Source of the DNA: a virus
DNA length: 64,000 nt
Direction: 5' to 3' (one strand)
IMG/VR virus record: IMGVR_UViG_3300002052_000001
Span: 62,001 to 126,000 of that record
Shown here: positions 10,870 through 50,694 of the stretch, in pieces
Numbering within the stretch: position 1 is the first letter of the stretch
Layout: each line of letters begins with the position of its first letter
Notes under the pieces: generated by a model
The model's input: the letters and a program-made list of their open reading frames with translations, nothing else
Database searches by the model: none
Told to the model about the DNA's origin: nothing
Made by a program: the position numbers and the translations under genes

Positions 10870-12102
10870 ATGTACGGACGATTCGATTATTACGGAGCCC
10901 CGGACATCGACCGCGAGATGCGGTTGGAGGAGGCGCGGGGTACCCAGATCATCTCCATAGCCCAGATGATGGACCTGAAGAAAAACCCCAAGGCCAAGCA
11001 GATGGCAATTCGCGGAGCGCCGGGTGGAGCTTTCGCCGGGTACGAGGTCAAGACCTTCCCGTCACGCGAGGCGATGATTGCTGCTCTGAAGAAGGCAACC
11101 CGTCATCCGTCGCACGGGGCTCTCGGGCGCAAGGAGTGGAGGGCGCTGATCAAAGACAAGGTGGCGAAGAACATGGTCGCCTATCCTTCGTACCAGGAAG
11201 AGCAGCTCGAACTGGCCGAGGGCCGCAAGGGCGTGCCGCGTCCCGGCACCAGGGTGAAGTTCCAGCCCAACCCGGCCAGCTTCATGTTGTACTCCGCCGA
11301 TCACCGGAGGAGGTTGCCCGACAAGGGCGGTGAGGGCACCGTCACAACGATCGCCGGGCCTCGCGGCAAGATGCACTATATGTCGGGGCCGGGCGGCGGC
11401 CTGGTCTATGTGAAGTGGGACGACACCGGCACGGTCGGCGTGTCTCCGCTGGACATCGTGAAGGTGAAGGGCGGTGGCTCGAAGAAGGCGGCGGCCGGAG
11501 GCGGCGGCAAGGGAGAGAAGTTCTCCATCAGCTACGGCGGCGGTCCTCCCATTCACCGCTTCAGGGTCGAGGCGCGGGAGCGCAAGTGGCTTCGCATCAA
11601 GGCGTCCATGTTCAAGGGCAAGAAGGCGAAGAAGCAAGAGGGTATCCAGGCCGAGATCGACCGGCTGGACGCCACCAGCTCGCCGTTTCCGGAGATCCGG
11701 GAGAAGCGCATCGCGGAGCTACGGACCGAGCTGAATGACGCGAGTGACGCAAATCATACCGAATTAACTGAGCGCAAGCAGAAGCTCGTCATCGGGTCCG
11801 TTCGGAAAAAGCTGCCGCCACTTTACTCCCAGGAGAAGGAAAAGGATCCGATGGTCTATCTCAAGCTCTTCAGCCCGTACATGGCTATGGGCTACTGGCT
11901 GATCACCGAGTTTGACGGGGACGACACCATGTTCGGCGCGGCCAACACCGGCCACGGCTGGGAGCTGGGCTACTCCTCACTGAAGGAGATGGAGGGCGCG
12001 AAGTACAAGGGCGTGCAGGCGATCGAGCGCGATATGTACTTCAAGCCGAAGAAGCTATCGGCGGCCAAGGCGGAGATAGCGCGGTCGAGGGGCGAGAGCT
12101 AA
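10870..12102 (+). CDS. Hypothetical protein in the tagged-gene unit, 410 aa
   Basis: ATG after GGACGGAGG. It lacks the SxQLxEA start but has MRLEEARG at residues 17-24, which contains LEE|A and might play the same part. Residues about 130-200 look like a KOW/SH3-like barrel (PGTRVKFQPN...GLVYVKWDDTGTVGVSPLDIVKV), a layout that often contacts nucleic acid. A Gly/Lys-rich linker (200-220) leads to an alpha-beta C-terminal domain. Function unknown. Confidence 0.6.
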   Translation: MYGRFDYYGAPDIDREMRLEEARGTQIISIAQMMDLKKNPKAKQMAIRGAPGGAFAGYEVKTFPSREAMIAALKKATRHPSHGALGRKEWRALIKDKVAKNMVAYPSYQEEQLELAEGRKGVPRPGTRVKFQPNPASFMLYSADHRRRLPDKGGEGTVTTIAGPRGKMHYMSGPGGGLVYVKWDDTGTVGVSPLDIVKVKGGGSKKAAAGGGGKGEKFSISYGGGPPIHRFRVEARERKWLRIKASMFKGKKAKKQEGIQAEIDRLDATSSPFPEIREKRIAELRTELNDASDANHTELTERKQKLVIGSVRKKLPPLYSQEKEKDPMVYLKLFSPYMAMGYWLITEFDGDDTMFGAANTGHGWELGYSSLKEMEGAKYKGVQAIERDMYFKPKKLSAAKAEIARSRGES

Positions 12103-41558: not shown

Positions 41559-41717
41559 TTATCGGAAAAGTCGTTCGGCAGCCAGCAACGCTTTCCTGGC
41601 CCGGTACCGACAGTGGAACTTGCCTACCAGTATCAGGTTCGTATGGCCTCTGGGCAACAGGTAGGCTGAATAGTACCAGCCCGCGTTGCCCATCTGGGTA
41701 ACGATGTACTTTCTCAT
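41559..41717 (-). CDS. Small basic protein, 52 aa
   Basis: ATG at 41717 after AAGGGGAAACTG, coupled to the GHKL gene's stop. MRKYIVTQMGNAGWYYSAYL, beta then basic helix (CRYRARKALLAAERLFR). Too short to classify. Confidence 0.6.
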   Translation of the reverse strand: MRKYIVTQMGNAGWYYSAYLLPRGHTNLILVGKFHCRYRARKALLAAERLFR

Positions 41718-43063
41718 CAGTTTCCCCTTCCCTTCCAGTAGAGGGCCGACCACAGGCTCTCGATGGCGCGGGTATGGCGGATCATGCCGTCGTCCGCGCC
41801 GCTGATGATGTGGGCCAGCTCGTGGACCAGGTGCTCCAGAATCTCCTCCTGGGTGGTAAGGACCTTCCGGGCCAACACGACGCGGCCGTCCCGGATTTCT
41901 CCTACCAGGTCCTCCTGGTAGAAGTCCGCTACCTGGATGATGTTCAGGACGGGCTCCACGTGGTGGCTCTCCAGGAAGGACGGCAGTACGGCGTCGACGA
42001 TGGCGGCGGCAGCCTGGAGGTTGGCCTGCTCGATCGCGGTCAGGTCGCTCCAGGAGTAGGTCGCGGTGATCGACTTGGCCAGCGCCTGCTTGACCTCTTC
42101 GGAGGTCTGTACCGTCCTGGACGCGGCCAGGACCTTGGCCAGCGTGTCGTTGACCACGACGCCGTGCTTGTTGGCGTTACTGATGTCCACGGCTTCGCCG
42201 ATGGATTTGACCGGGACCGAATTTTCGCCGTGCTCGGCGATGAATTCTTGGGCCAGGGCTTCGGTGACCTCTTCGTCGGAGTTGTGCTCCAGGCTCTGGG
42301 TGTCCATCTTGCCGTCGCGCAGCATGGCGTAGACTTCCGGGGCCATCGCTTCGGGTCGTTTACGGATAGCCTCTCGATACATCGAGGCCAGTTCCCACTT
42401 CAGGTTCCAGGTGTCGATCAGGCGGCGGTCGCGGTCGACCCTGAAGTCGAGTAGGTTGTAGCCCATCACCAGCTCGGGGATGTGCTGCACGAAGATTCCC
42501 TTCACGTACACGCGCCCCTTGAACTTCTCGTCCCGGATGATGGCTCCCCGGCCTTCGATCTCGATAAGATGCTTGGCCCGGTCGAGCGTGGCGAACGGCA
42601 GGAACAGGTCCTTGGCCTCCTCCCAGGTCTCCTCCGGCATCGTGATGGAGACGGTGACATCGCCGCGCCGTACCTTCAGCTTGCGCGTGCGGACCTTCAG
42701 GACGTTGCGGCCTCGGAAGTTGTTGGACGATCCGATAAACGGCTTCCAGATTTCGGTCTGGGTTCTGATGGTGATGTCGTACCCGGCGCGCACTCCGGCC
42801 AGGATGCCGACGCCCAGGCCCTCGCCGTGCTCGCCCAGCAGCTCTGCGTTCTCGGCCTTGTCGGTCTCGCCCATGAGCAACGCTTCAGTCGTCATGTCGG
42901 CACCGATGTTTTGGATGTGGAGCTGCCCGTTTCGGTACTTCACGGTCAGCTTGTAGCCCCGCTTGTCTTCGTCCATGCCGTTCTGCATGGCCTCCCGAAG
43001 GCACTCCCAGGTGCCCCAGGAGGGGACGTAGGTCTCCTTAATACTCAGCTCGATAATTGCCAC
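41717..43063 (-). CDS. GHKL ATPase fused to zinc metallopeptidase (copy A), 448 aa
   Basis: GTG at 43063 after AAGGAGGGACC. GHKL blocks: N box ECLREAMQNGMDED (20-33, N28), IQNIGADMT (50-58) and GEHGEGLGVG (77-86). Residues 100-400 are a transducer-like middle. A C-terminal LVHELAHIISGADDG has HELAH at 414-418, a HExxH zincin. ATP-clamp plus peptidase in one chain is not an architecture I know as a named family. Partner of the gene at 48120. Own promoter, and first in its operon after 43130. Confidence 0.75.
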   Translation of the reverse strand: MAIIELSIKETYVPSWGTWECLREAMQNGMDEDKRGYKLTVKYRNGQLHIQNIGADMTTEALLMGETDKAENAELLGEHGEGLGVGILAGVRAGYDITIRTQTEIWKPFIGSSNNFRGRNVLKVRTRKLKVRRGDVTVSITMPEETWEEAKDLFLPFATLDRAKHLIEIEGRGAIIRDEKFKGRVYVKGIFVQHIPELVMGYNLLDFRVDRDRRLIDTWNLKWELASMYREAIRKRPEAMAPEVYAMLRDGKMDTQSLEHNSDEEVTEALAQEFIAEHGENSVPVKSIGEAVDISNANKHGVVVNDTLAKVLAASRTVQTSEEVKQALAKSITATYSWSDLTAIEQANLQAAAAIVDAVLPSFLESHHVEPVLNIIQVADFYQEDLVGEIRDGRVVLARKVLTTQEEILEHLVHELAHIISGADDGMIRHTRAIESLWSALYWKGRGN

Positions 43064-43093
43064 GGTCCCTCCTTCCAAAAGGTTGTGCTTATG

Positions 43094-43122
43094 AATCTAA
43101 TAAGGTAAGCCAAGTTTGTCAA
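43094..43122 (-). promoter_or_regulatory. Sigma70-like promoter (minus strand)
   Basis: TTGACA (43122-43117), 17-nt spacer, TAGATT (43099-43094). Precedes the GHKL/metallopeptidase gene and its ribosome site AAGGAGGG. Confidence 0.65.
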
Positions 43123-43129
43123 GAACCGG

Positions 43130-43765
43130 TTAGTTTTCAGCAGCGTGACGAGTAGCGACATCCTCCAGTGTGGTCGTTTCCTCTTCGGGCACGACCTTGA
43201 CCAGCTCGATGCCGCGCTTCTCCTTGCGCTCCAGCTCTTCTTCGGTTTCGTCGCCGCGCACCACGTACTCGATCTTGCGCGGGACGAACGAGCAGAAGAT
43301 TCCGGGTGCGGGCTTGCCCTCTGCATCGGTGCACGCTTCGGGGTGCATCAGGTAAACGCGGACGGTGCCCAGGTTGTCGAGCAGCTCCTTCGGGATGGTG
43401 GACAGCCGCTTGGACAGCCCCATCTTCTGCACCTCGACCAGGAAACTCTCGGGCGAGTAGAACTTCTTGCCGACCCACATGAGCCCGGCGCGCTCGGGGA
43501 TATTGCCGGACATGGAACACGTTGTGCACTGCATGGAATGGATGCCTTCCTCAACGCACGGCTTTGGGTCGATGAACGACTGCGGATTGATCCAGCGGAA
43601 ACCCCGGAAGAACCTGAGTCCCTCGCCGCAGTGCTCGCACGGCTTCAGCGGATAGGGCAGCTTCCCGCAGGCGGAGAAGGCATCGCCGCCGATGAGGTAC
43701 GTGCCGCCGCCTTTGCGGTAGCCGCAGCCTCGGGCTTTTTCGTGAGATACTCTGATATTTGCCAC
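43130..43765 (-). CDS. Conserved phage protein, 211 aa
   Basis: MANIRVSHEKARGCGYRKGGGTYLIGGDAF...CGKLPYPLKPCEHCGEGLRFFRG, then HSMQCTTCSMSG, AGLMWVGKKFYSPESFLVEVQKMGLSKRL and GIFCSFVPRKIEYVV. This block order is a widespread large-phage family with several zinc-binding Cys; function not known. GTG start at 43765 after GGAGGG. Confidence 0.7.
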   Translation of the reverse strand: MANIRVSHEKARGCGYRKGGGTYLIGGDAFSACGKLPYPLKPCEHCGEGLRFFRGFRWINPQSFIDPKPCVEEGIHSMQCTTCSMSGNIPERAGLMWVGKKFYSPESFLVEVQKMGLSKRLSTIPKELLDNLGTVRVYLMHPEACTDAEGKPAPGIFCSFVPRKIEYVVRGDETEEELERKEKRGIELVKVVPEEETTTLEDVATRHAAEN

Positions 43766-43781
43766 GTTTCCCTCCTTCCAA

Positions 43782-44621
43782 TTATGCCGCCTTTAGAATG
43801 CAAGACGACACGGGTTTGTCATCTCTGACACGGACGAACTGAGCCGATTTCGCGGCCCCGCTCGGAAACTGCTCGAATGCTTTGACTTCGACCACCAGGT
43901 GGCCGTAGTGTTTCGGGTGCAGATATCTAATGGGCACCGGGCACTTCATCACCGGCGTCAGTGTGCCGTCGATGAACAGGCCCAGCAGCCCGGTTCGGTT
44001 GCCGGTATCGGTCCGGCCTTCGCTGACCAGCACGTAGTCCAGGGTGACTTCACGCTTCACGCGCCACCAGATATCTTCATCGGGCTGCACGACCTTGACC
44101 ATGACGCCCTCGCCCCCGGTGGCGACGTGCCGATCGTACTCTTCCCGGAACGCGCACAGCCAGCGCGGGACCAACTCGATCCGGCCATCGTTGGCTTCCA
44201 GCATGGGCGTGAACGCTTCCAGGATATTGCGACGCTGGAGCGTATCGCAGATGGGAGGCCGGAGGTCATCACCGCCGATCATTAAGCAGTCATGCGCGTG
44301 CAGGCGCGCATACCCGCGTGCGCGTGCGGCCCTGGCCCCGGCGGACGTTGACGCCTCTAGCTCGCCAATCACCACGCTGTTTCCCGGTAGCGGCCGGGAC
44401 AACCGGGGCAGGTCGAAAGACCAGCGGCGGTCCTTACCCAGGCGCGAGACTAGCTCGAAGTCCAGGCCGTTTGCCTGGACGAACATCGCTGTCCAGATGC
44501 CGTCGACCTTGGGCTCCATCCATGCCAGGTCCTCGAACTCTCGCTCTACCCAGTACAGGGCGTCGGGGGAAAGGTCGCCGTAGTGACTGACGTACCAGCC
44601 GAGAATCTCGGCCTCGGTCAT
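43782..44621 (-). CDS. ATP-dependent DNA ligase, 279 aa
   Basis: MEPKVDGIWTAMFV (K38 the adenylated Lys, KVDG), VVIGELEAS (83-91), GGEGVMVKV (169-177), WWRVKREVTLDYVLV (185-199) are ligase motifs I, III, IV and V. No N-terminal DNA-binding domain, so it is the short phage/bacterial form. Located next to a PolX-like gene; the two could repair nicks or gaps as in bacterial NHEJ or base-excision repair. ATG at 44621. Confidence 0.8.
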   Translation of the reverse strand: MTEAEILGWYVSHYGDLSPDALYWVEREFEDLAWMEPKVDGIWTAMFVQANGLDFELVSRLGKDRRWSFDLPRLSRPLPGNSVVIGELEASTSAGARAARARGYARLHAHDCLMIGGDDLRPPICDTLQRRNILEAFTPMLEANDGRIELVPRWLCAFREEYDRHVATGGEGVMVKVVQPDEDIWWRVKREVTLDYVLVSEGRTDTGNRTGLLGLFIDGTLTPVMKCPVPIRYLHPKHYGHLVVEVKAFEQFPSGAAKSAQFVRVRDDKPVSSCILKAA

Positions 44622-45130
44622 TATCTGTTTTGAGGTTCGAGCCACTTCAGGTCCAGCTCCTTGTAGATGAGTTCTTCGTTGCAGGAGCACGGGAGTTTTT
44701 CGCCGTCCTTCCACAGCCCGTACTCGTTGAGCTTGTAGCCCTTGCGCTTGGCCTTGGTCCGCTGCTGGATGTTGCGCTCCTTTGGACCGGTCAGGTACAT
44801 CAAGGCCGCGCCCGCGCTGTCGTCATCAGTGAGCAGGATATCGACCTGCACGCCATCGACCAGGCCGCTCAGCTTATGCGCGCCGCCATTGATGTTGAAC
44901 TCGGTGAGCAGGAAAGCTCGGAGTTGATCGCCCAGGCCCTCCGGCGGAATCATCACGATATCGACATCGCCGACAGTGCCGTTCTCATCCACGGCCCAGC
45001 GCCGGACCGACCCTACGATGATGGCGTCCTGGAGGGTGCCATCCTCGTCAGCGGCCTCGATGATTCTCATCCCGAGGTCCCAGGCTTCCTGCCAGTCGAC
45101 CCTCCGGCCGCCGTTTGCCTTGCCTCCCAT
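44621..45130 (-). CDS. PolX-like nucleotidyltransferase, 169 aa
   Basis: VGSVRR (39-44), GDVDIVM (54-60, D55 and D57), VDILL (96-100), LTGPKERNIQQRTKAKRKGYKLNEYGLW (113-140) give the palm and finger of a family X polymerase. Helix-hairpin-helix and 8-kDa lyase domains are missing, so it is a minimal form, as in some viruses. Catalytic Asp triad is complete. Operon partner of the ligase gene, overlapping stop and start. Confidence 0.8.
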   Translation of the reverse strand: MGGKANGGRRVDWQEAWDLGMRIIEAADEDGTLQDAIIVGSVRRWAVDENGTVGDVDIVMIPPEGLGDQLRAFLLTEFNINGGAHKLSGLVDGVQVDILLTDDDSAGAALMYLTGPKERNIQQRTKAKRKGYKLNEYGLWKDGEKLPCSCNEELIYKELDLKWLEPQNR

Positions 45131-45666
45131 CAGGCTGCCGCTTTTCTGGCTGCGTAACGCTCGCACCACTCGATGAGCTTGTCGAGGTCCACGCTGCGCC
45201 CGGCTGCGCACTCCTTCTTCCAGCCGTCATAGACCTTGTAAATGATACGGCCGTCCAGGCTTGCCTTTGGAAACGCGCCCAGGGCCTTGCGAAATGCCTC
45301 CGTGAGCCGTTCGCGGTAGTCGGCCGGTATCTTGGCCTCAACCGCAGAATCATAGCTCGCTGGGGTCTGAGGGGTCCCGCCGCCTACGCGGCAAATGAAG
45401 GTCTCCTCATTCTCGCCCTGGTAGATCACCGGCAGATCATCCCCGCCGAATCGGATCGACTCGGGCTTTTCGATAATAGGCGTCTCGCCCCCGGCACCGT
45501 TGCCGCCGCCCGCCTTCTTGCTCCGGCCTCCACCGCGAGCACGGATGGCGAACAGCACAGCGACGCCGTGGCCGATGGCCTTGGCCTCGTGTTCTGGATA
45601 CCCGATTAGCTCGGCCGCCACGCGATTCCAGAGGCCGAACAGCGGGAACCTGTTGAGCTTTGCCAC
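45130..45666 (-). CDS. Conserved hypothetical protein, 178 aa
   Basis: GTG at 45666 after GGAGGGAAAAATCT. NRFPLFGLWNRVAAELIGYPEHEAKAIGHGVAVLFAIRARGG recalls a conserved small protein with LWxRVAxExxGYPxxEAxxxGxxVAVLxA, found in bacteria but unnamed. Gly-rich linker (60-75), then helical and Arg-rich. The reading frame continues open upstream to 45966 (see next entry), so a longer form is possible. Confidence 0.6.
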   Translation of the reverse strand: MAKLNRFPLFGLWNRVAAELIGYPEHEAKAIGHGVAVLFAIRARGGGRSKKAGGGNGAGGETPIIEKPESIRFGGDDLPVIYQGENEETFICRVGGGTPQTPASYDSAVEAKIPADYRERLTEAFRKALGAFPKASLDGRIIYKVYDGWKKECAAGRSVDLDKLIEWCERYAARKAAA

Positions 45667-45918
45667 AGATTTTTCCCTCCTTCCTCTATCTATCTTAGCC
45701 ACTGAGGAGCGTTTGTCAAGAACAGGCCCCAGCTTCTTTTGTCGCCTGGGGGCCTGGAAAAAGCACCCTTCCCGGCCAGAGGCAGTTTCGTGAAAAACGG
45801 CCACGGAGCCACCAGCAAAGAGCTTGACCCGGCCCGGTTTTCCGCACTTGGGACAGCTCTCCATGCGGCCTGTCTGGGCCGCCTGGTAAGCCTCCTGGTA
45901 CGTGGCCTTCCCTGGAAT
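45667..45918 (-). other. In-frame zinc-ribbon extension or separate gene, no stop
   Basis: From 45918 down, PGKATYQEAYQAAQTGRMESCPKCGKPGRVKLFAGGSVAVFHE runs into the 45130-45666 frame without a stop. A GGAGG at 45926-45930 sits 7 bases before ATT (45918-45916), a rare but plausible start; ATG at 45864 (MESCPKCGK) lacks a site. The internal promoter at 45692-45719 lies inside this ORF. Either one fused 262-aa protein, or two genes whose boundary stop is gone. Confidence 0.45.
45692..45719 (-). promoter_or_regulatory. Sigma70-like promoter (minus strand)
   Basis: TTGACA (45719-45714), 16-nt spacer, TAAGAT (45697-45692). Fires the 45130-45666 gene with GGAGGG 20 bases further on; lies in-frame with the upstream zinc-ribbon ORF. 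Confidence 0.6.
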
Positions 45919-45937
45919 TTCCCTGCCTCCACTATTT

Positions 45938-45966
45938 AATATAATCGTATTAGAAAGCATTGTCAA
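45938..45966 (-). promoter_or_regulatory. Sigma70-like promoter (minus strand)
   Basis: TTGACA (45966-45961), 17-nt spacer, TATATT (45943-45938). The best -10 box of the minus block. It points at the zinc-ribbon ORF. Confidence 0.7.
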
Positions 45967-45992
45967 GAGGCGTCTCCTATGGTAGAAAGGAA

Positions 45993-46020
45993 TTGACGGG
46001 CCATGAAAGATGGTTACGTT
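45993..46020 (+). promoter_or_regulatory. Candidate plus-strand promoter
   Basis: TTGACG 45993-45998, 16-nt spacer, TACGTT 46015-46020, pointing at the gene starting 46043. With the minus promoter 27 bases away, it makes the 45967-46042 interval divergent. Confidence 0.4.
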
Positions 46021-46042
46021 GATAGGTGGAAGGAGGGATTTT

Positions 46043-46492
46043 GTGAGGCAAGAGTACGAGGTTTTCTTCTGTCTTAACAGCGACTTAGAAGGCCCCCTGG
46101 GCCAGTTTTGGTTGCTGGAACAGATGCTGGCAGACGCGGCCGTAGAGGTCGGTGTCGATAATAACGGTGTTGGTTTTTACGAATACCAGGGTGTTCGCGG
46201 TTTCGACAGCGGTACCAACTATCTGGTCGTGAAGGACCACGAGGATATTACGGTGCGCGCCCTGGTCAACGGCGTTGGGCCGGAGGAATGTGAGGACCTG
46301 GAGCAGCGCGTTCTCAACATGCTGAACGGCGCTGTTGACCGCAACCGCATCATCGAGCTTGCCCCCCATAAAGAGGATGGTCCGTGCGCGGGGGTCGAGG
46401 CGGTTTTCAAGAAAAGGGATGAGACGGTCGATGGCAACGGCGTGGCCTTTACCTTCGACGTGGAGTGGACGATCGACGGAGAGGTGTGCTGA
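46043..46492 (+). CDS. Hypothetical protein, 149 aa
   Basis: GTG at 46043 after AAGGAGGGATTTT. MRQEYEVFFCLNSDLEGPLGQFWLLEQMLADAAVEVGVDNNGVGFYEYQGVRG, then an alpha-beta fold with two His/Cys near the end. Possibly a small oligomerising head-like domain; no motif recognised. Confidence 0.65.
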   Translation: MRQEYEVFFCLNSDLEGPLGQFWLLEQMLADAAVEVGVDNNGVGFYEYQGVRGFDSGTNYLVVKDHEDITVRALVNGVGPEECEDLEQRVLNMLNGAVDRNRIIELAPHKEDGPCAGVEAVFKKRDETVDGNGVAFTFDVEWTIDGEVC

Positions 46493-46497
46493 TTGTA

Positions 46498-46791
46498 ATG
46501 ACCAACAACACCAAGAAGCTGCGTCGGTTCATGCGGAAGGCTCGCGAAGATGCCTTGTCCTGGGCGAACGATGAGAGCCTGGACAACGTGATTGCTGCCG
46601 AGAAGCACGCAAGGTGGGAACTGCAAAGGACAGTCCATCTCATCTCGGTGATTCGTCGGATATTCGCTGCGTGCGAACCGAATACCCCCGAATGGAGGTC
46701 CGAGGCCCTGGCGCTGGCGAAGAGCAGGAAGAAGGCCGCGATTCTCGCTGGCTACCTGGCGGGATACCGGAGGTACCTGAGAGATGTCTAA
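46498..46791 (+). CDS. Helical hypothetical protein, 97 aa
   Basis: ATG at 46498. MTNNTKKLRRFMRKAREDALSWANDESLDNVIAAEKHARWELQRTVHLISVIRRIFAACEP, basic and helical to the end. No motif. Confidence 0.6.
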   Translation: MTNNTKKLRRFMRKAREDALSWANDESLDNVIAAEKHARWELQRTVHLISVIRRIFAACEPNTPEWRSEALALAKSRKKAAILAGYLAGYRRYLRDV

Positions 46792-47083
46792 ACGCAAAAA
46801 GCAGTTCGAGGTGGTCGACCGCCACACGTCGAAGTACGACGCGGACACCAGGTACATGACCGTCCTGGTCGAGGGCAAGAAGTTCTACTTAGGTGTGGAG
46901 CGCGGGCGGCGCGTGCGTATCCCGTACAAGCCCGCTCGCGGGGGGCAGAATATCGGATTCAAATGGATGGGTTTCGTGAAGGATGAAAGTGGTCACGAGA
47001 TCTGGTCTGGATACGTTTCCAAGGGCCTGGGTGTACCCGGCCTGTTGCGGGCCGCTGGGCTCATTGGAGATGCAAATGTCTAA
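46784..47083 (+). CDS. Hypothetical protein, 99 aa
   Basis: Overlaps the previous gene by 8 bases. MSKRKKQFEVVDRHTSKYDADTRYMTVLVEGKKFYLGVERGRRVRI, basic beta-rich. Function unknown. Confidence 0.6.
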   Translation: MSKRKKQFEVVDRHTSKYDADTRYMTVLVEGKKFYLGVERGRRVRIPYKPARGGQNIGFKWMGFVKDESGHEIWSGYVSKGLGVPGLLRAAGLIGDANV

Positions 47084-47315
47084 GCGTGCCGCCAGGTTCA
47101 TCGTGAAGCAGCGCGGGGTGCTGCCCAGCGCGAGTGCGCAACGTCTGGGAGACGGCGATCCGCATCGATGGGGGCCGTGGCGGACCATCGCTTCTTTCCG
47201 CAAACGCAAGGAAGCGGTCGCGCTTTGCGATGACCTTGCCAAGGACCAGCGTTCTGGTCGGGGATGTTTTGCTGGCTACTCGGTTTGGTACCGGGGGAGA
47301 AAGATACATGGGTAG
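47076..47315 (+). CDS. Small basic protein, 79 aa
   Basis: ATG at 47076 after GGAGATGCAA. The GPWRTIASFRKRKEAVALCDDLA...GCFAGYSVWYRGRKIHG pattern recurs in the 47690 protein. Function unknown. Confidence 0.55.
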   Translation: MSKRAARFIVKQRGVLPSASAQRLGDGDPHRWGPWRTIASFRKRKEAVALCDDLAKDQRSGRGCFAGYSVWYRGRKIHG

Positions 47316-47514
47316 AGGACGCCTACGCCCCGACAGGTGGCGACCGTATCGGATCAGGCTCCGGCGCATTCTCAGCGCCAAGTTTGACGGGGCCGGAAAC
47401 TTGCCAGGGGTTACCGATGAGGATGTGGTCTGGGCGATGCGTATTGTGCGGGAGAAGCCTGACTGGGCTCGCGGTGTGCTGAAGGTATGTGGCTTCGGAG
47501 GAGATGCCAAATGA
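47308..47514 (+). CDS. Small basic protein, 68 aa
   Basis: ATG at 47308 after GGGGGAGAAAG. MGRGRLRPDRWRPYRIRLRRIL is very basic, then DEDVVWAMRIVREKPDWARGVLKVCGF. No motif. Confidence 0.5.
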   Translation: MGRGRLRPDRWRPYRIRLRRILSAKFDGAGNLPGVTDEDVVWAMRIVREKPDWARGVLKVCGFGGDAK

Positions 47515-47693
47515 CCAAGGCTGAAGCGAAAAAGGTTGTCTGCAAGCACGTAGCGGACCTGATCAATGGGCAGCTCGACTGCGGTTGGCCTTTTGAGCAT
47601 TACCATTCCGATATCTCGGATGAGGACTACAAACGGATGTGGGAATCTTTCCGGGAGCTGGTGGGGGAACTCGAACGGAGAGGTTCGGGATGA
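47511..47693 (+). CDS. Small hypothetical protein, 60 aa
   Basis: ATGA overlap. MTKAEAKKVVCKHVADLINGQLDCGWPFEHYHSDISDEDYKRMWESFRELVGELERRG, helical. No motif. Confidence 0.55.
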   Translation: MTKAEAKKVVCKHVADLINGQLDCGWPFEHYHSDISDEDYKRMWESFRELVGELERRGSG

Positions 47694-48037
47694 AGAAGCG
47701 TGAGCCCAAGTTCATCTACAAGAAGCGGTCTGTCGAGGCGGCGGCCTACAACCCGTTCCGTCCTCGGGGACAGGTCTGCTACGGACGATGGCAGACGATC
47801 AGCAAGCACGACACCTTTGATGAGGCGGTCGATGCGATGCAGTTGCAGACCGCTGGTTTGTATGACCGAGGTGTCTTCTATCGCGGGGAGCGAATCACCG
47901 ATCACCAGGGCGTCTCCCGGGAGGAGGTGAAGTGCGACCTGTGCGGCCGGTGGACCAAACGCGATCGGCGTGCCAGTTCCACCACGGGGATACTCTCGCA
48001 TGGGTGCCCCGGAAAAAAGGAAAAAGGGCTATTCTGA
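47690..48037 (+). CDS. Small basic zinc-binding protein, 115 aa
   Basis: ATGA overlap. MKKREPKFIYKKRSVEAAAYNPFRPRGQVCYGRWQTISKHDTFDEAVDAMQLQ...YRGERITD recalls 47076-47315. EVKCDLCGRWTKRDRRASSTTGILSHGC gives a CxxC...C site. Paralogy to 47076 is probable. Confidence 0.6.
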   Translation: MKKREPKFIYKKRSVEAAAYNPFRPRGQVCYGRWQTISKHDTFDEAVDAMQLQTAGLYDRGVFYRGERITDHQGVSREEVKCDLCGRWTKRDRRASSTTGILSHGCPGKKEKGLF

Positions 48038-48060
48038 CAAAACAGCAAAAAACAGCCATC

Positions 48061-48089
48061 TTGACAAATAGATAGGAGTATGGTAGAAT
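48061..48089 (+). promoter_or_regulatory. Sigma70-like promoter
   Basis: TTGACA 48061-48066, 17-nt spacer, TAGAAT 48084-48089. The ATG at 48120 is 30 bases on, with GAAGGTGG, so leadered. Confidence 0.65.
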
Positions 48090-48119
48090 AGTAATATATG
48101 GAAAGGAAGAAGGTGGCTA

Positions 48120-49580
48120 ATGAAACCAACATTTGAAGTGGACAAGAAGGGTCTGGCCAAGATTCTGGCTCGGCGCGGTATCGAGTTCGTGGTGCTGGAG
48201 CTGATCCAGAATGCCCTGGATGAGAAGTCGACCAGCGTCGCGGTGACGCTCCGGCGGCTGGGCGTCGGTCACAGCCTTCACGAACTGGTGGTCGAGGACG
48301 ACAACCCGGAGGGCTTCAAGGACCTGGCGCACGCCTACACGCTGTTTGCGGAGTCGGCCAAGGGCAAGAACCCGAACCAGCGGGGCCGATTCAACCTGGG
48401 TGAGAAGTTGGTCATCGCCGTCTGCAAGGAGGCGAGGATCACAACCACCAAGGGTACCGTGTTTTTCGATAAGAATGGTCGAACCCATACCCGTGGGAAG
48501 ACCCAGAGAGGGTCCTTTTTCCAGGGACAACTGCGTCTAAAGGATGATGAGGTGAAGCGCATCGAAAAGGCGGTGCGCGAGGTCATCGTGCCGCGAGGTG
48601 TGAAGCTCTGGTTCAACGGCAAGCGGTTACCGAAGTGGCAGCCGGTCAGGACCTTCCAGGCTACGTTGCCGACCGAGATTGCGGACGAAGAGGGCTTCCT
48701 CCGGCGCACCAAGCGCAGCACCATCGTCAAGGTCTACACGACAAACCGGACCTACGGTGGACCGGCGCGGCTCTACGAGATGGGCATTCCGGTCGTGGAC
48801 ATCGACTGTATCTGGCACGTCGACATCAACCAAAAGGTGCCGTTGAACGCGGACCGCGACAACGTGACCCCGGCCTATATGCGGGAGGTCCTGACGCTGG
48901 TGCTCAACGAGATGCACGGATACATGAGCGAGGAAACCGCCAGGGCTCCCTGGGTCGATGAGGCCCTGGAGAGCGAGAACGTCACCGACGAAGCGGTGGA
49001 CACCGTGCTCACGGCCCGGTACGGGGAAAAGCGGGTCATCGCCGATCCGAGCGATCCGGAGGGCACCAAGCTGGCGGTTGCCAAGGGCTACCAGGTCATC
49101 CAGGCCGGGTCCTTCAACCGGACTCAGTGGGACAATATCCGGCGGTCGGGCGCGGCGCTACCGGCGGGCCAGGTAACGCCCAGTCCCAAGGTGTTCTCCG
49201 ATGATCCGGACGCGCCGCCGGTCGAGCTGATTCCCGAGGACAAGTGGACGGCCGACATGCGGGCCACCGTAATCTACGCCCAAAAGCTCGGGCGGTTGCT
49301 GCTGGGCGAGACCATTGATGTCCAGATGGCCAAGGACCTCAACGGCTTCTCGGCCTGCTACGGGAGAGATGGTCGCCTGATGTTTGGCGTCAAGCGTTTG
49401 GGCAAAAAGTGGTTCCGCAAGGTGAAGGACGGGGACCTGGAGGTGGTGGACAGGCTGCTTCTCCATGAGTTCGGCCACCACTACAGCGCGGACCATCTCA
49501 GTGAGGAGTACCACGACGCCCTGTGTAGGCTCGGTGCCAGGCTCAAGCGGTTGGCTCTGGAAGGAGAGTTGGAGGGGTAG
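48120..49580 (+). CDS. GHKL ATPase fused to metzincin-like peptidase (copy B), 486 aa
   Basis: GHKL N box VLELIQNALDEK (25-36, N31), a diverged G1 VVEDDNPEGF (57-66) and G2 RGRFNLGEKLV (88-98), then a transducer-like middle with DINQKVPLNADRDNVTP. C-terminal LLLHEFGHHYSADH has HEFGH at 449-453 and H459: HExxHxxxxxH, a metzincin-type site. Same two-domain order as copy A, but with a different zinc motif and weak sequence match. T4 rIIA is also a GHKL protein; whether this is rIIA-like is unknown. Confidence 0.75.
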   Translation: MKPTFEVDKKGLAKILARRGIEFVVLELIQNALDEKSTSVAVTLRRLGVGHSLHELVVEDDNPEGFKDLAHAYTLFAESAKGKNPNQRGRFNLGEKLVIAVCKEARITTTKGTVFFDKNGRTHTRGKTQRGSFFQGQLRLKDDEVKRIEKAVREVIVPRGVKLWFNGKRLPKWQPVRTFQATLPTEIADEEGFLRRTKRSTIVKVYTTNRTYGGPARLYEMGIPVVDIDCIWHVDINQKVPLNADRDNVTPAYMREVLTLVLNEMHGYMSEETARAPWVDEALESENVTDEAVDTVLTARYGEKRVIADPSDPEGTKLAVAKGYQVIQAGSFNRTQWDNIRRSGAALPAGQVTPSPKVFSDDPDAPPVELIPEDKWTADMRATVIYAQKLGRLLLGETIDVQMAKDLNGFSACYGRDGRLMFGVKRLGKKWFRKVKDGDLEVVDRLLLHEFGHHYSADHLSEEYHDALCRLGARLKRLALEGELEG

Positions 49581-49695: not shown

Positions 49696-50694
49696 ATGCG
49701 ATCAGTGGTCCTGTTGTTTTTTCTCGTGGGGTGTGCGGCGGATGCCCAGTCGATTGATGGGCTCTCTGTGGACAGCTCCGTGCCATTGGAAAGCGAGTCA
49801 CCGGGAGAGCCTATTGGAGCAGACGCGGGCATCGAACCCGAACTGACGGAGGACGGCGAATTGCCTGATCCCGGCCCCCAGGCGGGCCAGGGAGGGAGCT
49901 TCGTCGAGCCGGAGGTAGATGGATATGTCGAGGATCCGGAAGTCGACAGCGGGCCGTCTGCTGACCCGGATGCCGGGAGCGACCCGGACGCCCAAGCGGG
50001 AACCGGCGGAGCTGCTGGTGGGCTCGCGGGCGCGGGCGCGGGAGGTACCGGCGGTGTTGCCGGAGGCGCGGCTGGTACAGGTGGTGTTGCTGGTAGCGTG
50101 GCTGGGGCTGGAGCCGGAGGTACTGGCGGAGCTGGTGTCGGCGGAGCCGGAATTGGTGGATCCGGAGGAGCAGGGGCGACCGGCGGAGCCGGTGGGTCAG
50201 GCGATTCCTGCGATGATGGTAAGGAATGTACTGAGGACAGGCTCATTGTGGGGACTGTCTGCATCCATACGCCGGTGGATGACGGAACACCCTGTTCCGG
50301 CGGCGAGTGTCAGAATGGCGTGTGTGAGCCCATCGCCGGGACCGGCGGCGGCGGTGCTGGTGGGACTTCCGGGACGGGAGGAACGGGGGGTACTTCTGGA
50401 ACTGGCGGTACTGGTGGCACTGGCGGTAGTGGAGGGGATTGCGGTGGGATAGGCGAACCGTGTTGCGCTGGCGGCACGTGTACTTTCGGTAATTGTGATC
50501 AGGGATTTTGTCGAAACTGCGGATACAAGAATAGGGTTTGTTGCTCTGAAGGTATGTGCGTCACTGGCGAGTGCATAGACGGTACCTGCCAATGTGGCGC
50601 TCGATGGCAGCCGTGTTGTTTTTACGGGACCAGCATCGGGCTTTGCGATGAGGGGCTGGTCTGCCATCTGGAAATTCCGCGCATCTGCTATTGA
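49696..50694 (+). CDS. Putative secreted Gly-rich lipoprotein, 332 aa
   Basis: MRSVVLLFFLVGCAAD has a hydrophobic core and the lipobox LVGC with Cys13 as the likely lipidated residue. Residues 14-100 are acidic and Pro-rich. About 100-170 and 225-260 are Gly-Gly-Thr/Ala repeats. Cys-rich modules (CDDGKECTEDRLIVGTVC, CSGGECQNGVC, CCAGGTCTFGNC, CRNCGY...) lie between and after them. Such lipoproteins are common in Myxococcota; in a phage it may be a transferred surface protein. Function unknown. Confidence 0.75.
   Translation: MRSVVLLFFLVGCAADAQSIDGLSVDSSVPLESESPGEPIGADAGIEPELTEDGELPDPGPQAGQGGSFVEPEVDGYVEDPEVDSGPSADPDAGSDPDAQAGTGGAAGGLAGAGAGGTGGVAGGAAGTGGVAGSVAGAGAGGTGGAGVGGAGIGGSGGAGATGGAGGSGDSCDDGKECTEDRLIVGTVCIHTPVDDGTPCSGGECQNGVCEPIAGTGGGGAGGTSGTGGTGGTSGTGGTGGTGGSGGDCGGIGEPCCAGGTCTFGNCDQGFCRNCGYKNRVCCSEGMCVTGECIDGTCQCGARWQPCCFYGTSIGLCDEGLVCHLEIPRICY

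Follow-up and report, generated by a model that had tools for sequence, protein, structure and literature searches.

Two GHKL-S5 ATPases with a C-terminal zincin domain in one viral genome belong to a single family of large phages and mobile elements

We analyzed a window of 64,000 nucleotides (bases 62001-126000) from the 191,623-base IMG/VR virus record IMGVR_UViG_3300002052_000001, which encodes two proteins with a GHKL ATPase at the N-terminus and a HExxH motif at the C-terminus, here called type A (486 aa) and type B (448 aa). The two proteins are members of one family, in which a GHKL-S5 ATPase is followed by a zinc peptidase domain at the C-terminus and which is found mainly in large phages and other mobile elements. 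We give roughly even odds (a probability of about 0.5) to the reading that they are ATP-gated peptidases, in which closure of a dimer would present a captured substrate, either a protein or a protein-DNA complex, to a zinc endopeptidase.

Architecture and conservation of the two fusions

Both open reading frames (ORFs) were confirmed at the positions listed in Table 1. A first-pass annotation, made from the sequence alone, had described a GHKL start and a HExxH end in each of them, and it was right both in the coordinates and in the positions of the motifs HELAH (type B) and HEFGHHYSADH (type A). The type B ORF starts with a GTG at 43063, and a TTG upstream at 43078 is a possible alternative start.

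Used singly as queries, the window proteins gave no matches in viral and genome contigs; alignments were needed. By tblastn, full-length relatives of type A with 46-48% identity were detected in a 485-kb uncultured phage and on Methylibium petroleiphilum, Bosea and Rhodovastum plasmids; Picosynechococcus plasmids carry distant ones. When a five-sequence type A alignment was used as the query, 34 loci from many phyla were found in GTDB genomes and at least 140 contigs matched in IMG/VR, of which 80 were kept; the family is thus widespread in giant phages. Full-length type B fusions were also present at four type A loci, and an alignment search of viral contigs yielded 14 type B loci. In total, 118 type A homologues were collected from giant phages, plasmids and chromosomes of many bacterial phyla, so that the fusion is present in other phages and in bacteria.

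The motifs are not chance occurrences, because they are conserved across the homologues of both types. Among the 118 type A proteins, the ATP-site residues E27, N31, D34, D60, G65, G89, G94 and K96 are ~99% conserved, and the transducer residues Q238 and R246 are present in all. The zinc-site residues H449/E450/H453 are 98% and H459 is 100% conserved; HExxH is found in 116/118 sequences and the third histidine in 118/118, the proteins lacking HExxH (loci L025 and L045 only) being isolated cases. In type B, all 14 members share R23-E24, Q27-N28, D31, G77, G80, G82, H414 and E415, while H418, D425, G426 and H430 are conserved in at least 90%, which gives the C-terminal signature HExxH...DG...H...IE..W. 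The transducer loop of the same alignment contains an invariant D212 and R213 preceded by D210 and R211 (at least 90%). The Pfam model HATPase_c_3 matches 57/72 type A members (best 3e-8), and HATPase_c matches 5/14 type B members. The PHROG family phrog_6077 (function unknown) matches residues 3-327 of the window type B protein with an E-value of 1.2e-49, i.e. without the peptidase part, and type A with an E-value of 0.025, which does not amount to profile membership.

Structure predictions with AlphaFold2 gave a predicted local distance difference test score (pLDDT) of 93.1 and a predicted template modeling score (pTM) of 0.85 for type A, and values of 87.9 and 0.70 for type B. PDB searches with the single sequences found no matches. 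Foldseek searches against the PDB with the models retrieved HSP90B (7e-11), MORC3 (1e-8) and MutL (5e-8), as well as MORC2 and topoisomerase VI, for type A, and TRAP1 (3e-9), MORC2 (1e-4) and Hsp90 for type B. The template modeling scores of these matches are modest (0.2-0.5), as expected if the alignment takes in only the GHKL domain plus the transducer. Against viral models, type A matched many rIIA proteins at ~1e-8 and one 399-aa viral protein at 3.5e-34. The GHKL fold, on which the first-pass annotation had staked its reading, is present in both chains, and N box, glycine boxes and Bergerat fold together place them in the GHKL superfamily. Both types have the same layout of GHKL domain, S5-like transducer, alpha/beta linker and C-terminal zincin. 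The description of each protein as a GHKL ATPase fused to a HExxH zincin thus holds, with both sets of sites strongly conserved and an S5-like second domain in addition. In MutL, MORC and Hsp90, it is the S5-like second domain that makes the proteins ATP-gated dimers. A motif comparison suggests that the PLNxDR loop of type A with R246 resembles the DLPLNVSRE motif of HtpG.

These fold matches also bear on an alternative in which the proteins are Hsp90- or sacsin-like foldases whose peptidase would process a phage protein, in virion maturation or from a polyprotein, instead of a host protein. HSP90B and TRAP1 are the best PDB matches, the NCBIfam model of a sacsin-like ATP-binding domain matched at 8.4e-7, which is under that model's cut-off, and phage polyprotein processing is thought to involve zincins (PMC5512222). 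However, members of the family reside on conjugative and other plasmids and on isolate chromosomes, where a virion is not required, and no constant order beside structural genes was observed. We consider such a chaperone-protease improbable.

The C-terminal parts of both models show a small zincin layout of a helix, three strands, the HExxH helix and a last helix. In the alignments and models of both types, HExxH lies on a helix and a third ligand follows it, and H449/H453/H459 (type A) and H414/H418/H430 (type B) are candidate metal ligands, to which the helix placement and the WLM-like spacing of the third histidine would fit. The best PDB matches of the type A zincin profile are myroilysin (E 0.005) and WLM/Wss1; in the latter, HExxHxxxxxH with all three histidines and the following helix were superposed, at an E-value of only 0.06-0.12. 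Both matches are suggestive and fall short of a family assignment. Type B reached 14-16 bits with the SprT-like model (cut-off 25.6) and 12.5-15 bits with WLM (cut-off 26), below both family cut-offs; the best SprT-like Pfam match among type B members was 8.3e-5, with the window protein under the curated cut-off. No WLM/Wss1 or SprT/Spartan match was among the Pfam matches listed for the window type A protein.

The nearest rival to an ATP-gated peptidase acting on host proteins overlaps with it and differs in the substrate. The proteins may sit on DNA as MutL or MORC do and, like Wss1/Spartan, trim proteins stuck to DNA while the phage replicates (crosslinks, nucleoid or restriction proteins), which would be repair and not attack. 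Fold matches to MORC, MutL and topoisomerase, the WLM, SprT-like and YgjP-like signals in the zincin, and genes for a ligase-like and a PolX-thumb protein nearby in the window are consistent with this role, whereas no DNA-binding domain was detected, Hsp90 matches score no worse than MORC matches, and the neighboring genes differ between genomes. We regard a DNA-clamp protease as possible, although not as likely.

Common origin, altered zinc sites and A-B pairs

The first-pass annotation had seen little other similarity between the two proteins and had considered that the architecture was either duplicated or recruited twice. The former is true of a pairwise comparison (BLASTP, E = 1.7) but not at the profile level, where hhalign aligned type A (72 sequences) with type B (23) over 395 columns (Prob 98.4, E 4e-15). 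The alignment spans residues 14-479 of type A and 12-446 of type B, with the N boxes, the PLNxDR/LDRDR loops and the HExxH motifs in register. A C-terminal-only alignment was weaker (E 1e-6 and 1e-5), and a linker-only alignment was not convincing (Prob 11). In a tree based on the ATPase and transducer columns, type A split from type B with a support of 100; the Moorella protein was basal, a position that carries a long-branch risk. The colinear full-length alignment and the tree indicate one diverged ancestral architecture, and two independent recruitments of the peptidase were rejected as the main explanation, separate gains at the same position being improbable. The simplest reading of the sequences would be an ancestral GHKL-S5-linker-zincin protein, followed by an ancient A/B divergence and later losses of the peptidase.

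Proteins similar to phrog_6077 that lack the peptidase occur, for instance, in the phages ABPH49, 4MG and QdP_Psa3, in Vibrio, Klebsiella, Streptococcus and Pseudomonas phages, and on one Pseudomonas plasmid. It is the N-terminal 327 residues of type B that match this family, and some members are annotated as 'RIIA lysis inhibitor' or 'histidine kinase-like ATPase'. Only the protein of Moorella phage MTATph1, among those examined from phages and one plasmid, has the peptidase. One change on the tree accounts for all peptidase-less type B proteins, with a support of 74 that is not firm, and these phage proteins probably go back to one loss. Altered zinc sites were found in otherwise intact type B proteins, namely EEVSH at L153 and L154, where the first ligand is replaced by Glu, and HEAIK at L140, where the second histidine is lost and which looks like decay in progress.

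A further class, type C (phrog_8203), neighbors type A at several loci. In its sequence, the glycine box precedes the N box (REFxSNAID). When residues 106-133 were moved to the front, the hhalign score of type C against type B increased from 136.9 to 165.4, whereas two control moves gave 120.3 and 146.5; judging from the sequence, the GHKL domain of type C is circularly permuted internally. At its C-terminus, EExxH replaces HExxH. Since EExxH is kept in gp29 of phage YuA, in a Synechococcus phage and in a 595-kb phage, it is a maintained variant and not random decay. Relatives of type C were found by tblastn in 68 phage records, mostly of Pseudomonas phages, while a search of the window's own record for a type C gene found none.

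The EExxH sites at L153/L154 and in type C, together with HEAIK at L140, would fit a HExxH that is a relic, with an inactive zincin serving as a docking domain of the GHKL ATPase. Set against the retention of HExxH and the third histidine in type A, and with decayed sites looking different, this explanation is very unlikely.

When 36 viral records containing type A were searched, a full type B gene was found in eight IMG/VR records, and a contig of a Phycisphaerae metagenome-assembled genome (MAG) also holds one. Counting the window's own record, the type A and type B genes are no more than 16 kb apart in nine viral records, plus the MAG contig; the gaps measure 0.6 to 15.9 kb and the records 81-435 kb. 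The combined chance of this proximity is ~5e-5 (eight records, one near copy omitted); as the lineages are not independent and phage genes cluster by module, the value speaks for proximity and not for a complex. Type A keeps HExxHxxxxxH both in the two records with an EExxH type B and in five type C loci. With due reserve, an ATP-gated protease clamp used as a pair of paralogues, in which the partner of A is either B or the permuted C, can be envisaged, possibly as a heterodimer with A as the constant catalytic chain and an alterable site in the partner, as in MutL-alpha, but we would call this arrangement rather unlikely.

Proposed mechanism and genomic neighborhood

In GHKL enzymes, ATP binding dimerizes the N-termini and a basic residue of the transducer completes the active site. 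In the systems known so far, what the closing dimer gates is strand passage, nicking, DNA compaction or folding. For GHKL-S5 ATPases, the part played by the basic residue of the S5 domain has been stated previously (PMC2292703). For the ATP-gated peptidase that we favor, we infer zinc binding, peptidase activity, ATP gating, dimerization and the target as follows. The GHKL domain would bind ATP, two chains would dimerize via their N-termini, and the transducer arginine would complete the active site in the manner of Hsp90, MutL and MORC. The dimer would close like a clamp around a protein or protein-DNA complex, and closure and hydrolysis would carry the captured substrate to the C-terminal zincin, which would cleave it. 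Such a device may act at the infection stage by removing a host protein, for which a component of host defence or a roadblock bound to DNA would be the most plausible candidate. Given the patchy phage distribution and the rIIA-like fold, anti-defence is plausible as the most likely purpose; an Hsp90-like or DNA-clamp role may apply just as well as an anti-host or anti-defence one.

Several points weigh against an ATP-gated peptidase. The peptidase or its first ligand is lost in some type B relatives and so is not essential to every member, the type A loci showed no constant neighbor, no conserved partner gene and no target, and the zincin is placed at clan level only, the named peptidase families lying below curated cut-offs for the window proteins. 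As a candidate for a conserved operon partner of type A, a neighbor cluster of 18 loci proved to be a resolvase-like recombinase, and other clusters stemmed from near-identical contigs.

Bacterial type A copies lie among mobile and defence genes at a few loci. This survey was based on crude ORF calls that include spurious antisense ORFs, and no enrichment over a background is claimed. At L026:9937-11540, a chromosomal type A gene adjoins a CD-NTase gene and a gene for a two-transmembrane (2TM) effector, which are CBASS-like according to PADLOC and sequence. On a Rhodovastum plasmid (L006:3764-7433), SIR2 and HerA anti-phage genes are located 3-6 kb from type A. On Picosynechococcus pAQ6 (L007:7379-13850), a protein distantly resembling type A carries HEAAHAMNMHH and is flanked by a gene with a DisA_N domain and one with a CHAT domain, and at L005 a gene annotated as RNA ligase family lies near type A.

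The family may instead consist of accessory or defence genes of mobile elements, the bacterial copies residing in defence islands and the phage copies shielding the host from competing phages. The CBASS-like pair, SIR2-HerA and the DisA_N and CHAT genes point in this direction, as do MADS-like and DrmD-like matches near other copies. These are few loci without a constant partner or a background rate, however, and viral contigs hold most of the copies found, so we judge this explanation unlikely.

Within the window, the genes for the ligase-like protein (43782-44642; Pfam DNA_ligase_A_M, 1.7e-4) and the DNA polymerase beta (PolX) thumb protein (44621-45211; 2.5e-16) adjoin each other on the minus strand (43782-45211) between types A and B. 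Directly downstream of type A, the gene at 49696-50694 (+) encodes a protein that begins like a lipoprotein (LVGC), contains glycine-rich repeats and ends in a cysteine-rich tail; it has no Pfam match. A 410-aa protein encoded at 10870-12102 (+) carries a DUF2958 domain at its end (1.3e-13). To place the virus taxonomically, the window's own record was searched for a sliding clamp and for two families of terminase, with no match.

Table 1. Positions of the type A and type B features in the window and of type C genes at other loci
Feature	Position	Strand	Basis
Type B GHKL-zincin fusion, 448 aa	41717..43063	-	phrog_6077 match, 14-member alignment, AlphaFold2 model
Type B GHKL ATPase domain, ~residues 1-150	42614..43063	-	14/14 invariance; Foldseek TRAP1/HSP90 3e-9
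Type B N box, R23-E24..Q27-N28..D31	42971-42997	-	
Type B G boxes, G77..G80..G82		-	
Type B S5-like transducer, ~residues 151-262, with D210-R211-D212-R213 loop	42278..42613	-	Conservation; aligned with type A PLNxDR loop
Type B alpha/beta linker, ~residues 263-340	42044..42277	-	Secondary structure of model; weak local similarity to type A linker
Type B C-terminal zincin, ~residues 341-448	41720..42043	-	Conservation; Pfam SprT-like among members
Type B HELAH, 414-418	41810-41824	-	
Type B distal H430	41774-41776	-	
Type A GHKL-zincin fusion, 486 aa	48120..49580	+	118-member family; AlphaFold2 model
Type A GHKL ATPase domain, ~residues 1-140	48120..48539	+	~99% conservation; HATPase_c_3 5.3e-5
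Type A N box, E27..N31..D34	48198-48221	+	
Type A G boxes, D60/G65 and G89-R90..G94-E95-K96		+	
Type A S5-like transducer, ~residues 141-270	48540..48929	+	Loop Q238-K239-x-P-L-N-x-D-R246
Type A alpha/beta linker, ~residues 271-365	48930..49214	+	Secondary structure of model; weak local similarity to type B linker
Type A C-terminal zincin, ~residues 366-486	49215..49580	+	Conservation; helix-sheet-helix-helix core in model; WLM/Wss1 alignment
Type A HExxHxxxxxH, HEFGHHYSADH 449-459	49464-49496	+	
Type C gene	L068:10324-11763	+	
Type C gene	L063:10310-11737		
Type C gene	L067:7241-8680		
Type C gene	L073:9768-11213		
Type C gene	L023:3897-5288		
Type C, YuA gp29	L170:2998-4176		

Comparison with known systems

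The GHKL-S5 module is a general ATP-driven gate that is coupled in nature to nucleases, topoisomerase domains and chaperone domains. If the reading as an ATP-gated peptidase is true, a GHKL gate combined with a zinc peptidase would be a further design of ATP-dependent protease beside the AAA+ proteases. Pfam, PHROGs, NCBIfam and PADLOC hold no model of a GHKL-zincin fusion and the papers searched contain no description of one, in agreement with the first-pass annotation, which knew no name for the architecture.

Wss1/WLM, Spartan/SprT and YgjP-like proteins have the small zincin core in common with types A and B, and WLM has the same HExxHxxxxxH spacing and following helix, but they carry ubiquitin- or DNA-binding parts where types A and B have the GHKL domain. 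The zincins of polyvalent proteins are likewise carried by phages and conjugative elements, and the paper describing them mentions no GHKL or Hsp90 domain (PMC5512222). Hsp90/TRAP1 and sacsin are the best fold matches and their PLNxxR catalytic loop appears to be alike, whereas types A and B have a zincin in place of the Hsp90 C-terminal domain. MORC/paraMORC proteins, which match the fold of type A, also combine GHKL with an S5 module containing a catalytic basic residue. Their distribution is sporadic and some have C-terminal effector domains, which are nucleases, with no peptidase mentioned (PMC2292703). The MORC signature GhXhhpXXRhl, taken from the same paper, is present in 0/72 type A, 0/23 type B and 0/4 type C proteins.

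T4-type rIIA is likewise a phage-borne GHKL protein with a second domain, and type A matches it in fold. This GHKL protein has been described as acting in counter-defence, and its C-terminal domain as variable (PMC7824862). The rIIA proteins are ~650-970 aa long, compared with about 450-490 aa for types A and B with their zincin C-terminus, and neither window protein matched the rIIA family phrog_2979 at E<=1 (0.032 for the Moorella relative). The mechanism of rIIA against RexAB is still called unclear (PMC10286901), and relatives with the rIIA fold and a recognizable enzymatic C-terminus would make it a testable question.

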